23,432 nt of DNA from a virus. The stretch covers positions 1 to 23,432 of the IMG/VR virus record IMGVR_UViG_3300032333_000299. The stretch is one strand, 5' to 3'. Shown piece after piece: positions 2,741 to 22,367 of the stretch. The notes under the pieces were generated by a model. The model was given only the letters and a program-made list of their open reading frames with translations, searched no databases and was not told where the DNA came from. Both the position numbers and the translations under genes were made by a program. Within the stretch, counting starts at the first letter, position 1. The number at the start of each line of letters is the position of its first letter.

Positions 2741-2985
2741 CGTGGGAGTGCAACGGGTGCGGGGCGTGCTGCCGGGCGCTGGCCACGGGGCTTCTGTCCG
2801 ACCCTGAGGCCGCGCGCGCGCTCGACTCGGGCGACGGCGTGTGCAGGCACCTCGAGCGCGCAACGAACCGGTGCACGATCTACGAGACGCGGCCGGCGTG
2901 CTGCCGCGTGACGCCCGCGCACGCCCCGGAGGCGCTCGTGGAGGGGTGTCGTGTTCTCCGGCTGGCAATCTTCCGTGAGGTGTGA
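2737..2985 (+). CDS. YkgJ-type CxxCxxCC cysteine-cluster protein
   Basis: This 82-aa protein carries the signature of the YkgJ/UPF0153 zinc- or iron-binding cysteine-cluster family. It has C5-x2-C8-x2-C11-C12 at the N-terminus (CNGCGACC), then C36 in VCRHL, C46 in RCTIYETRP and C55-C56. The IYETRP block with the following Cys is typical of the family. Members are thought to bind a metal or Fe-S cluster; their reaction is not established. At 82 aa it is a minimal version. It starts at GTG 2737, coupled to the mini-ORF by GTGA, and its stop overlaps the GTG of the GNAT gene. Its role in a phage structural operon is unknown. Confidence 0.85.
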   Translation: MTWECNGCGACCRALATGLLSDPEAARALDSGDGVCRHLERATNRCTIYETRPACCRVTPAHAPEALVEGCRVLRLAIFREV

Positions 2986-3350
2986 CAAACAATGTCCTAC
3001 CTATGCCGGTCGTCGTTCGCGAAGCACGAGAGACGGACACCGCCTATCTGGCGTCGACGATCGCCCGTTCCGGCGAGTTGCCGGGGCGCCGGCATCTCTG
3101 CACGGACTGCGCGCGGACGATGCTTTCCGCCTGGAAGGCCGGCGGGGGCGTGCGCCTCGTCGCGGTAGACGAGGCGGATCCTGACGCGATCATCGGCTAC
3201 GTGTGCGCCGCGCCGCCGGTGCTGCATCACGTCTACGTGCGCGCGGAGTTTCGCGGGCAAGGCGTCGCGAGGAAGCTCTTCGAGGCGCTCTCGGGCCCCT
3301 GCGAGCGCGTGAGCCTGCCGTTTCGGGGCGCGCGTCTGGGGGCCGCGTGA
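2982..3350 (+). CDS. GNAT-family N-acetyltransferase
   Basis: This 122-aa protein would transfer an acetyl group from acetyl-CoA. The GNAT pattern is visible as an N-terminal strand VVVREARETDTAYL, a central strand VRLVAVDEADPDAIIGYV, and motif A at residues 81-99 (LHHVYVRAEFRGQGVARKL). The RGQGVA turn there is the acetyl-CoA pyrophosphate loop. The protein ends soon after motif A, so the motif B half is short or missing. Small GNAT-like proteins occur in other podoviruses near head and tail genes, and a structural role is possible. The GTG at 2982 overlaps the previous stop as GTGA; ATG 3003 (MPVVVRE) is an alternative start. Confidence 0.85.
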   Translation: MTNNVLPMPVVVREARETDTAYLASTIARSGELPGRRHLCTDCARTMLSAWKAGGGVRLVAVDEADPDAIIGYVCAAPPVLHHVYVRAEFRGQGVARKLFEALSGPCERVSLPFRGARLGAA

Positions 3351-19319: not shown

Positions 19320-19738
19320 GCGGCCCTTGCCTTTGCTCGTGGTGCGTGGAGGCGCGGCAGCGGCGCGCCGAGGAGGCCGCCGAGCTGCGCGGCCTCGCGG
19401 CCTACGACCAGGCGCGGCACGCGAAGACCTCCGCGTGGACCGACGAGGAGCGCGCCGAGATGGCCGCGCAGCGGGCGCGGGACAACGCGCCGGGCATCGA
19501 GTCGCGGTTCGTGGTGCGCGAGTCGTGGGGCAACCCTTCGGGAGCGCCGAACAGTTCGCTCAGCGCCGCGCAGGCGGGCTGGGAAGTCGCCGTCGAGCGC
19601 ATCCTCGCGGCCATGCCCACGCTCTCCGACGCGGAGCTCGACGCCATGCTGGACCGTGAGGACCGCGCCGCGGAGGCCGGCGTGCGCGCCCTGGCCATGC
19701 GCGAGGCGCGCCGGCGCTGCGGCGCGGGGTGTCCGTGA
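19316..19738 (+). CDS. Hypothetical protein with N-terminal Cys motif (140 aa)
   Basis: ATG 19316 overlaps the previous stop. The N-terminus CLCSWC could bind a metal, possibly with the C-terminal CGAGC. The rest is helical and charged (RRAEEAAELRGLAAYDQARH, then SDAELDAMLDREDRAAE). No known family is recognised. The stop overlaps the GTG start of the methyltransferase gene, so it may belong with DNA modification rather than lysis, but that is only position. Confidence 0.65.
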   Translation: MSGPCLCSWCVEARQRRAEEAAELRGLAAYDQARHAKTSAWTDEERAEMAAQRARDNAPGIESRFVVRESWGNPSGAPNSSLSAAQAGWEVAVERILAAMPTLSDAELDAMLDREDRAAEAGVRALAMREARRRCGAGCP

Positions 19739-21612
19739 TTCACCACGCCGACGTCCTCGACGCCCTTCGGGCGATGCCTGACAACTCGTTCCACGGGTGC
19801 CTCACGGATCCGCCGTATGGCCTGTCGCAGGGCAAGAAGGGCGGGACAGGCCAGGCCAGCGAGAACTTGAACTCACCCGCGGGCCGGTCGCGGGCAACCA
19901 CGGGATTCATGGGGCACACGTGGGACGCATTCGTCCCGCCTGCCGAGGTCTGGCGCGAGGTCCTGCGCGTACTGAGGCCCGGCGCGCACATGCTCGCCTT
20001 CGGCGGTACGCGGACCTTTCACCGTCTCACCTGCGCCATCGAAGACGCGGGGTTTGAGATTCGCGACTGCATGATGTGGCTCTACGGGAGCGGATTTCCC
20101 AAGTCTCACGACGTGAGCAAGGCAATCGACAAGGCCAACGGCGACTGGCGCGGCAAGGCCGGCGCAGTCACATCCGGCAACGCTGCCATGGGAGGCCCGA
20201 ACTACGCGCGTACGCCAAAGGGTGAGCCAATCGCAGAAGCCGCCCGCCAATGGGAAGGCCACGGCACCGCGCTCAAACCCGCATGGGAGCCCATCATCGT
20301 GGCACGCAAGCCCCTCGACGGGACAGTCGCGCAGAACGTCCAGCGGTGGGGCTGCGGCGCGCTGGCGATTGATGCGTGCAGGGTGGGCCATGATGAGCTC
20401 GCAAAGACGACCGCGCGAACCGCGCCGAGGTACTCGGGCCGCACCATGGCCAACGGCGTACGGGGCGGCGAACAATCCAGCGTTGCGGGTCCCGACCCCC
20501 TCGGCCGCTGGCCCGCCAACGTCATTTTGGACGGAGTGGAGGACCCTGTGCTACGCTTGCGGGACAATGTCGACCAACAAGTGGCGCGAGTCATCGGGCT
20601 CTATTTCCGTGGCATGCCAGACGTGCGGAGCGGAGACTCGCACGTTTCCGAGTCGGGCAAACCGGAAGAGGTTCTGCGGGAGAGACTGCTACGCGAAGTG
20701 GCTGAGCGCAAACCGAAGCGGAGCGAATCACAACATGGCCGGAAAGCGGCACCGCCCCGATTCCCTGGCGAAGATGCGGGAAATAAAGAAGGCACACGGA
20801 CTCTTGAGGCGGGGGCCGAACTCGGCCAATTGGAAGGGCGGGACGTACCTGATGCGCGGCTACCGAATGGTGGCAACGAGTCCGGAGGACCGCGAACGAT
20901 TCGCCGGGATGGTGAGTCCGTCCGGCTACGTGATGGAGCACCGGCTGGTGATGGCTCGCAAGCTGGGGCGCCCGCTGACGTCCAAGGAAGTGGTTCACCA
21001 TCGGAACGGCACGAAGACGGACAACAGGGTCCGGAACCTCGAGCTTTCGGACAACGCGACGCACAAGCGGGAGCACCAGTCGATCATTCGGGAACTTCGG
21101 CGCCTGAGGCGAGAGAACGAGCAATTGAGGTCCGAGCTTCTCAAATTCCAGAAGGGTGGCTGAGCTACTTCGAGCCAACCGGGCGTGTCATCAGTGGCGA
21201 GGCCGGGCAGGCCATCGACTCGCAGACGGGGACGCTACGCAACGGCGGACAGAACGCGACGAGCAGGCGGGGTAGCCAGAGCGTGGCGCATGGCGGATAC
21301 ACCGACGGTGCACCAACGCGGTTTGCCGCCGACTCGGGAGGCGCCTCCCGCTTCTTCTACCAGGCCAAGGCGAGCAAAGCGGAGCGGAACGCAGGCGTCG
21401 AGGCGAACATCCACCCCACGGTCAAGCCCCTGGCCCTGGCCCGCTACCTCGCCCGCCTCATCCTCCCACCAATCCCAGATGCGCGCATGGTCGTTCCGTT
21501 CTGCGGCTCGGGCTCTGAGGTCATCGGCGCGCTACAGGCGGGATGGTCGCACGTCGACGGCATCGACTCTTGGGACGTTGCTGTGGATATCGCGCGGGCG
21601 AGGACCGCATGA
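19735..21612 (+). CDS. DNA methyltransferase (amino-group, beta order) interrupted in frame by an HNH-gene insert
   Basis: The frame encodes 625 aa. It starts at GTG 19735 (GTGA overlap; GTG 19729 is an alternative). The catalytic motif TDPPYGLSQ is at residues 24-32. It then shows HTWDAFVPPAEVWREVLRVL, ISHH-free target region sequence, and GRWPANVILDG. The second half has RFFYQAKASKAERNAG, HPTVKPLALARYLAR (from residue 560) and the SAM-binding loop FCGSGS (589-594). DPPY before FxGxG is the order of beta-class N6-adenine or N4-cytosine methyltransferases. Residues about 273-475 are a low-complexity charged stretch without methyltransferase character, exactly where an HNH endonuclease gene occupies another frame. 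Without it the protein would be about 422 aa, a normal size. Whether the interrupted protein is active is unknown; it could protect phage DNA from restriction. Confidence 0.85.
   Translation: MIHHADVLDALRAMPDNSFHGCLTDPPYGLSQGKKGGTGQASENLNSPAGRSRATTGFMGHTWDAFVPPAEVWREVLRVLRPGAHMLAFGGTRTFHRLTCAIEDAGFEIRDCMMWLYGSGFPKSHDVSKAIDKANGDWRGKAGAVTSGNAAMGGPNYARTPKGEPIAEAARQWEGHGTALKPAWEPIIVARKPLDGTVAQNVQRWGCGALAIDACRVGHDELAKTTARTAPRYSGRTMANGVRGGEQSSVAGPDPLGRWPANVILDGVEDPVLRLRDNVDQQVARVIGLYFRGMPDVRSGDSHVSESGKPEEVLRERLLREVAERKPKRSESQHGRKAAPPRFPGEDAGNKEGTRTLEAGAELGQLEGRDVPDARLPNGGNESGGPRTIRRDGESVRLRDGAPAGDGSQAGAPADVQGSGSPSERHEDGQQGPEPRAFGQRDAQAGAPVDHSGTSAPEARERAIEVRASQIPEGWLSYFEPTGRVISGEAGQAIDSQTGTLRNGGQNATSRRGSQSVAHGGYTDGAPTRFAADSGGASRFFYQAKASKAERNAGVEANIHPTVKPLALARYLARLILPPIPDARMVVPFCGSGSEVIGALQAGWSHVDGIDSWDVAVDIARARTA
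20551..21159 (+). mobile_element. Inferred homing-endonuclease insertion (about 609 bp)
   Basis: The borders are inferred, not proven. Methyltransferase-like sequence stops near codon 272 (ILDGVEDPV) and resumes near codon 476 (LSYFEPTGR). Joining these on paper restores a sensible reading. The length is 203 codons, so the host frame is kept. The insert holds almost nothing but the HNH gene (20567-21163), leaving no room for a group I intron core. By eye it has more A and T than flanking DNA. No clear target duplication is visible; GCTAC occurs near both borders but is too short to count. Confidence 0.6.
20567..21163 (+). CDS. HNH homing endonuclease nested in the methyltransferase gene
   Basis: This 198-aa protein is encoded one base out of the methyltransferase frame and lies wholly within that gene. 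Domains in order: a zinc finger with C17, C20, C37 and C41 (CQTC ... FCGRDC); a NUMOD3-like short motif near residues 58-75 (GKRHRPDSLAKMREIKK); GPNSANWKGG (83-92); then the HNH domain with YVMEHRLVMARKLGRPL (121-137) and EVVHHRNGTKTDNRVRNLEL (141-160), where H144, H145 and N153 match the catalytic core. A Leu/Arg coiled coil follows (171-193). The ATG at 20567 is the best start although no Shine-Dalgarno is seen; the upstream open frame is methyltransferase coding read out of frame. It would nick or cut DNA at an uninterrupted methyltransferase gene and spread by repair. Confidence 0.92.
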   Translation: MSTNKWRESSGSISVACQTCGAETRTFPSRANRKRFCGRDCYAKWLSANRSGANHNMAGKRHRPDSLAKMREIKKAHGLLRRGPNSANWKGGTYLMRGYRMVATSPEDRERFAGMVSPSGYVMEHRLVMARKLGRPLTSKEVVHHRNGTKTDNRVRNLELSDNATHKREHQSIIRELRRLRRENEQLRSELLKFQKGG

Positions 21613-22367
21613 CCACCCTCCCCGGCCTCCGCCTCCCCGGCTACGTCGACGGCATCGACGTGTCCGCGGTCCAGCGCATCGCGGACCCCCAGGCGGTCTA
21701 CGACGCGGGCTTTCGCTTCGCCTTCGTGAAGCTCAGCGAGGGCGCAAACTACTGCGACCCTCGCGCGCAGAGCCACCTCGCAGCCCTTCGCAGCGCCGGG
21801 CTGCACGTCGGGGGCTACGGGTTCGCGCGCGTCGCTGGCGAGCCTCGTGCGCAGGCGCGCGCCACGGTCGACCGGTGCGCGGGCGCGGAGCACCTCGTGC
21901 GGCCCGTGCTGGACCTCGAGACGGCGCCGGCGGACTGGAGCTCGGGCGCGCTGTTCGCGTGGGCGGTGGACTGGCTGGCCGAGGCGAGCCGCGCCGGGTG
22001 CGCCCCGGTGCTCTACTCGTACACGTCGTTTTTGTCCGGCCGCCTGACGGTGGCGGACCGGCGCACGCTGCTCGCCGCGGCGCCGCTCTGGCTCGCCCAA
22101 TATCGCAGCATCACCAGCGCGTGGGCACCGGCCTCCGAGGCTGACATGCCGAAGGGCTACGACTGGCAGCTCTGGCAGTACTCGGGGGACGGTGGCCATC
22201 CGGTGCCGGGCATTCCGGGCGCCACGGACCGGAATCTGTTCCGCGGCGACGAGTCAGCGCTGCGCGCGTGGTTCGGCCTTCCGCCCGATGGCACGACGCT
22301 GGACATGGGCGGCCCGGTGCACGGGTCACACGTCGTTGACGCGGCGCTGGGGCGGGGCGAGGACTAG
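21609..22367 (+). CDS. GH25 muramidase (endolysin)
   Basis: This 252-aa protein would cut the glycan strands of peptidoglycan at the end of infection. GH25 features are clear. GIDVSAVQ has the first Asp (D17), and FVKLSEG has E44 (the family usually has KATEG). Strand HVGGYGFARV follows, then the catalytic pair VLDLET (D102, E104), and a late WQLWQYSGDG with the closing strand. No signal peptide or membrane segment is present, so it needs a holin to reach the wall. The C-terminal ~30 residues after LRAWFGLP are a short tail, not a recognised wall-binding domain. ATG 21609 overlaps the methyltransferase stop as ATGA; the frame is open upstream, but only inside that gene. Confidence 0.93.
   Translation: MTTLPGLRLPGYVDGIDVSAVQRIADPQAVYDAGFRFAFVKLSEGANYCDPRAQSHLAALRSAGLHVGGYGFARVAGEPRAQARATVDRCAGAEHLVRPVLDLETAPADWSSGALFAWAVDWLAEASRAGCAPVLYSYTSFLSGRLTVADRRTLLAAAPLWLAQYRSITSAWAPASEADMPKGYDWQLWQYSGDGGHPVPGIPGATDRNLFRGDESALRAWFGLPPDGTTLDMGGPVHGSHVVDAALGRGED

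Follow-up and report, generated by a model that had tools for sequence, protein, structure and literature searches.

The window analysed here, a 23,432-base virus contig taken at its full length, carries a DNA methyltransferase gene within which a complete HNH endonuclease gene lies out of frame. We consider it very probable that this insert is a ShiLan-type site-specific homing element that is translated as a loop without being spliced out; it would be retained in the mature protein of a functional enzyme, and its endonuclease would cut empty sites. Both reading frames are open, relatives with an empty site exist, nested HNH genes avoid stops in the host frame, and HNH lineages mostly follow the insertion site. 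In the proposed mechanism, the HNH gene would copy itself into empty phage methyltransferase alleles by double-strand-break repair and would be tolerated because, read in the host frame, its sequence has no stops. Host ribosomes would read through the insert, giving the methyltransferase a surface loop of roughly 200 residues, most of it disordered, and the HNH would be translated separately from its own start within the methyltransferase gene.

The methyltransferase gene (19729..21612; all window features given with coordinate ranges below lie on the plus strand unless they were noted by eye) has a GTG start and 627 codons, and was assigned to the DNA N6/N4 methyltransferases from its ORF, from matches to PHROG 67 DNA methyltransferase (1.2e-40) and Pfam N6_N4_Mtase (1e-9), and from AlphaFold/Foldseek, with CcrM and other beta-class methyltransferases as the top Foldseek matches. 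Its frame contains no stop from GTG 19729 to 21612, including the whole HNH stretch. As originally predicted, the DPPY half lies 5′ and the HPTVKP/FCGSGS half 3′ of the HNH: the upstream part (19729..20532) ends with ...GRWPANVILD and shares 69% identity with L082, the closest empty relative found, and the downstream part (21199..21612) shares 55%. The AlphaFold2 model is confident in both halves of the core (many blocks 90-98, the last nine 77-97), and because residues 331-470 of the insert have a pLDDT of 31-37 within this confident core, the insert looks like a disordered loop. Removal of codons 273-475, by which the original prediction restored a normal enzyme, is not needed for a continuous protein, since the host frame stays open through the insert. 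By eye, the ORF directly 3′ of the gene (21616-22367) is GH25-type lysozyme-like, and a small Cys-rich ORF (2737-2985) and an acetyltransferase-like ORF (2982-3350) lie between terminase-like and portal-like genes.

The HNH ORF (20567..21163) encodes 198 aa from its ATG in the +1 frame, its codons beginning one base after those of the methyltransferase, and matches Pfam HNH_3 (2.3e-8) and many PHROG phage HNH families (1.5e-16), which bears out the prediction of a complete HNH ORF off the host frame. Its translation includes an N-terminal zinc-finger-like Cys cluster (CQTC...CGRDC; 20615..20689) and the HNH_3 catalytic domain (PF13392; HH...N...; 20939..21064), and its TGA stop (21161..21163) falls within the host codons TGG CTG AGC. 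The start is uncertain and may be ATG 20567, GTG 20609 or CTG 20546. ATG 20567 has a weak ribosome-binding site and no clear, well-spaced one, GTG 20609 aligns with the later of the two ATGs that open the HNH of the relative L137, and CTG 20546 directly follows GGAGG (20538..20542), a possible ribosome-binding site for the HNH. A Shine–Dalgarno scan of the nested HNH loci was suggestive only, with many candidate starts at several loci.

Alignment with L082 and L137 places the inserted element at 20533..21198, that is, 222 host-frame codons (methyltransferase residues 269-490) where L082 reads GRWPANVILDE-EAGQALDVQSG; these borders depend on L082, which is just 55-69% identical, and are accurate to a few codons. 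They replace the predicted borders EDPV/LSYFEPTG (codons 273-475). The empty relative that had been sought was thus found in L082, and it supports the proposal that a homing-type HNH gene entered the methyltransferase gene out of frame. L137 is occupied at the same site: its methyltransferase is 44% identical to that of the window, its HNH there is 56% identical over 169 columns, and the two HNHs form one clade in the HNH tree (support 100/99). The two also have host-frame features in common at both insert ends. The left flank (20533..20608, upstream of GTG 20609) resembles that of L137 (V..L...N[IV]D..V...I..YF), and the right flank (IPxxWLxYFxxTG; 21145..21198), which overlaps the HNH stop, is otherwise present only in L137. 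Because a pattern scan found the right-end motif in no HNH-free methyltransferase of the set, the simplest reading is that these ends belong to the element itself. The original prediction had held that conservation of the middle part in the methyltransferase frame would speak against an insertion; the host-frame ends are indeed conserved, but they are absent from empty alleles, which suggests that they belong to the element.

A survey combining HNH-based and methyltransferase-based searches, in which every HNH was classified against methyltransferase ORFs, yielded 54 distinct same-strand nested HNHs (35 in +1, 19 in +2 and none in frame); these belong to about six site lineages and cannot be counted as independent. 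All 54 have an open methyltransferase frame. Contrary to the original prediction, the arrangement is therefore not uncommon, given these cases and prior descriptions (PMC11855218; PMC12613952; a GenBank note on Violet gp57), and hidden HNHs in phage methyltransferases are widespread, at several sites. Two further HNHs (L142 and L252) are nested antisense within methyltransferase ORFs. An explicit look for HNHs between broken methyltransferase halves revealed only two true splits, a number that could be an under-count as nested cases were recognised via a spanning ORF. These are L187 (L187:2036-3584) and the second HNH of L184 (L184:2110-4350), AT-rich relatives in which the host frame is broken at the HNH and the downstream part forms a separate ORF. 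Host-frame continuity is accordingly not absolute, and the two splits are possibly genes in pieces or decaying alleles. A hidden +2 HNH (HNH_3, 6.1e-8) was also observed in a C5-cytosine methyltransferase (PF00145, 3.5e-38; L364:3504-5549), and the class therefore extends beyond N6/N4 enzymes. Overlapping HNH and methyltransferase matches in Myxococcales and Betaproteobacteria contigs (L406, L431) probably represent prophages with the same arrangement. For annotators, big unexplained insertions in phage methyltransferases may conceal a second gene.

When mapped to the methyltransferase profile, the inserts cluster at few positions: s1 (profile about 114-125; 25 cases), s2, the ShiLan/Filuzino site (about 158-177; seven cases), s3 (about 243-254; the window and L137), s4 (about 316-325; 11 cases) and s5 (just before the VLDPF motif; six cases), the remaining sites, including s6, being single cases. 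Each of s1-s5 is used in one frame, s2 and s4 being the +2 lineages. The HNH tree groups by insertion site, with 11 label changes versus a shuffled mean of 47.7; s3, and s5 minus one row, are supported clades, and s1, s2 and s4 each have one or two outsiders or loose rows. L137 (L137:2668-5556) carries two hidden HNHs in one methyltransferase, which differ in both site and frame, and each groups with its own site. That HNH lineages mostly track the site fits what is expected of endonucleases specific for their own target. At the right junction of six s4 rows (L118, L090, L220, L221, L222 and L225), HSTVKP stands in place of the usual HPTVKP, and the Ser codon (AGC/AGT) after CAT gives the TAG stop of the HNH.

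Avoidance of host-frame stops was assessed by permuting synonymous codons within each HNH gene, which keeps both composition and protein. No host-frame stop was observed in the 48 nested HNHs tested, versus 180.8 expected; their third frame is not depleted (271 versus 233; 156 versus 157), nor is there any depletion in 73 non-nested control HNHs (532 observed versus 515 expected; 796 versus 823). Most of the signal comes from the +1 lineages (164 expected stops), and the +2 lineages s2 and s4 are weaker (0 stops versus 16.7 expected; 14 open versus 3.9 expected). Lineages s1, s3 and s5 and the StellaBean element (see below) are each significant, members within a lineage not being independent. 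The host frame is open in just 1.1-1.5% of synonymous shuffles of the window HNH, in 0.1% for the StellaBean element, and in none of 1000 shuffles each for the AT-rich cases L024 (GC 0.37), L069 (0.38), L051 (0.42) and L075 (0.44), which are individually decisive. In +1, a host stop requires an HNH codon ending in T, and because every amino acid has an alternative codon, any protein can be recoded to open the host frame; in +2, Met followed by an A-initial codon forces a host-frame TGA. These statistics support the host frame being kept open, as expected if the insert is translated within the host enzyme.

The host-frame ends at other sites are rich in cysteine. Read in the methyltransferase frame, 21 of the 23 s1 inserts that were aligned start with a C-x-C and finish with a C-x-x-C pair, and Cys pairs occur at both insert ends in six of six s5 cases and in the single s6 case, the overall pattern being CxC or CxxC at the left and CxxC at the right; such pairs are missing at the window's own site. 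The background frequency of CxxC is 41 of 2480 54-residue windows of HNH-free methyltransferases, and among 157 HNH-free segments the s1 pattern CxC...CxxC was confined to duplicates of contigs with nested cases and to L358, whose HNH at s1 belongs to a different Pfam family (PF01844). In L401, the s5 Cys pair lies within a methyltransferase whose relatives read RLVTPPGGVVLDPF, cysteine-free there. A host-derived zinc ribbon at s1 was ruled out by these 157 segments and by the empty alleles of the phages Baka and Adahisdi. An origin of the host-frame cysteines as a by-product of HNH zinc-finger codons was ruled out for the +1 frame, because a host-frame TGY needs a Val or Ala codon of the HNH directly after one that ends in T.

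The ends also travel with the element. Proteins 98.6-100% identical to the StellaBean HNH are encoded in 18 listed mycobacteriophage records of several genera, the carriers including Violet, Lamina13, Optimus, SG4, Tarkin and Applejack; the HNH is annotated as a nested gene in Lamina13 (gp62) and StellaBean (gp98), and the GenBank note on Violet gp57 reads 'HNH endonuclease domain out of frame'. In an alignment of five of these genes, the insert DNA is 98-100% identical over most of its length, and several downstream methyltransferase stretches drop to 20-50%. The unit starts shortly after GFPKS, stops shortly before GTALKP and takes in its CDC and CSWC ends, both of which are lacking in the empty alleles of Baka and Adahisdi. 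This pattern shows that the StellaBean-type element has moved between divergent mycobacteriophage methyltransferases together with its host-frame ends. Phage Abrogate (L436, methyltransferase 1104-2261) lacks 447 nt of HNH sequence, an in-frame loss, and keeps both host-frame Cys ends and a continuous 385-aa methyltransferase, which shows that element-borne ends can outlive the HNH.

For L077, AlphaFold gives a confidence of about 79-81 to the blocks with both Cys pairs and mostly below 50 to the stretch between them, and the natural reading of the pairs is a zinc clasp that would bind metal; a 31-aa clasp query had no match in phages. We tentatively put at a little under even the chance that these elements form a non-splicing mobile class with two functions, an out-of-frame homing endonuclease and host-frame ends forming a loop-closing clasp that lets the host enzyme work. 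Within that reading, a split zinc ribbon at s1, s5 and s6 and some other pairing at the window's site are conceivable, though we would not quite favor them. If the ends are a zinc clasp, both reading frames would be under selection, and selfish elements would have a third way, besides introns and inteins, to inhabit a coding gene without destroying it.

Excision of the insert at the protein level, by a non-intein splicing or processing reaction using the host-frame ends, would account for the open frame, for the conserved ends and for the persistence of these ends in Abrogate, which would then be a miniature form. This is nonetheless improbable: NCBIfam detected no intein model in the window protein, intein blocks (a host-frame Cys or Ser at the N terminus and Asn at the C terminus) were not found in the window, the ends of the Violet element (ASIY... 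to ...LEPL) and of the window have neither intein nucleophile nor terminal Asn, and the CxC/CxxC spacing would seem to resemble metal ligands rather than splice nucleophiles. As a separate observation, out-of-frame HNHs in L072 (L072:2343-4997) and L188 (L188:2017-4260) lie within an intein-like methyltransferase stretch (CLS.D.EVLT start and VTGN|S end, host frame), as if an other-frame gene had filled the endonuclease slot of an intein; this intein call is by motifs, NCBIfam being hitless.

Phage HNH homing endonucleases are often intron-borne, and if the insert were an overlooked self-splicing intron, cut out of the mRNA, its open host frame would be incidental. We regard this as very improbable, because an Rfam gathering search found no intron in the window and eight loci (most with surveyed nested HNHs; L164, phage BUCT618, nested by inspection), the insert is barely longer than the HNH ORF, and introns need no open host frame, yet 0 stops were observed versus about 181 expected. 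No intron signal was found in PMC11855218 either. The original prediction that the element is neither intron nor intein is therefore upheld for the window. Ribosomal bypass of the insert, or production of the enzyme as two separate halves, recalls L187 and L184, in which the downstream part is its own ORF, but neither mechanism would call for the host frame to stay open, as it does in the other 54 cases, and we give this reading hardly any credence. Opening of the host frame by chance of base composition in a dead or dispensable methyltransferase might be favored by high GC, which makes stops rarer, and by a methylase that is not essential, as argued in PMC11855218, but it is already largely refuted, with opening by GC content ruled out by the shuffles that predict about 181 stops and by the undepleted non-nested HNHs, and with frames open even at 35-45% GC.

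The preferred reading, a homing element translated as a loop of its host enzyme, has its closest counterpart in the 'ShiLan domain', a hidden out-of-frame HNH in mycobacteriophage methylases (ShiLan, Pacc40) described in PMC11855218 (Arsenault, Gosselin and Gogarten 2025) and first seen in PMC9957025. The 2025 paper reports that there is no intron or intein, predicts a looped-out insert and proposes leaderless translation because no ribosome-binding site was detectable; the stop-avoidance test, the additional sites and the host-frame Cys ends are not reported in the available portion of its text. For the Filuzino copy (L162), the proposed HNH GTG start comes immediately after GGAGGACGA, which makes an ordinary ribosome-binding site plausible. 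The ShiLan domain and the window element are alike in a homing-type HNH nested out of frame in one and the same family of methyltransferases, an open host frame, the lack of an intron or intein, a disordered host-frame product, an HNH that stops close to or at the right border and a patchy distribution, L082 being empty and L137 occupied at the window's site. They differ in site (ALKPxxEP at s2 versus after WPANVILD at s3), in frame (+2 versus +1) and in HNH lineage; because of site and frame, the window element is a sister lineage of the ShiLan class and no copy of the ShiLan domain. Methylases of cluster A and other mycobacteriophages, such as Violet gp57, Lamina13 gp62, StellaBean gp98 and Applejack, in which an out-of-frame HNH was described in PMC12613952, have the window's architecture in +1, but at s1, with another HNH Pfam family (PF01844 in L358, a close relative) and with host-frame CxC and CxxC ends that the window lacks. 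Inteins with homing endonucleases are likewise mobile, site-specific and read through in the host frame; their endonuclease is in the host frame, whereas that of the window is out of frame and no splicing motifs were found there. Phage HNH homing endonucleases are of group I intron-borne and free-standing kinds, which resemble the window in the type of endonuclease and in homing that is presumed to go through break repair, but the window element has no ribozyme, is not intergenic and preserves the host frame through the endonuclease. The class itself was described in 2025; new in the window are another site, another frame, another HNH lineage and an occurrence outside mycobacteriophages, and a few mycobacteriophage cases thus become a broad class with statistical evidence of a kept-open host frame.
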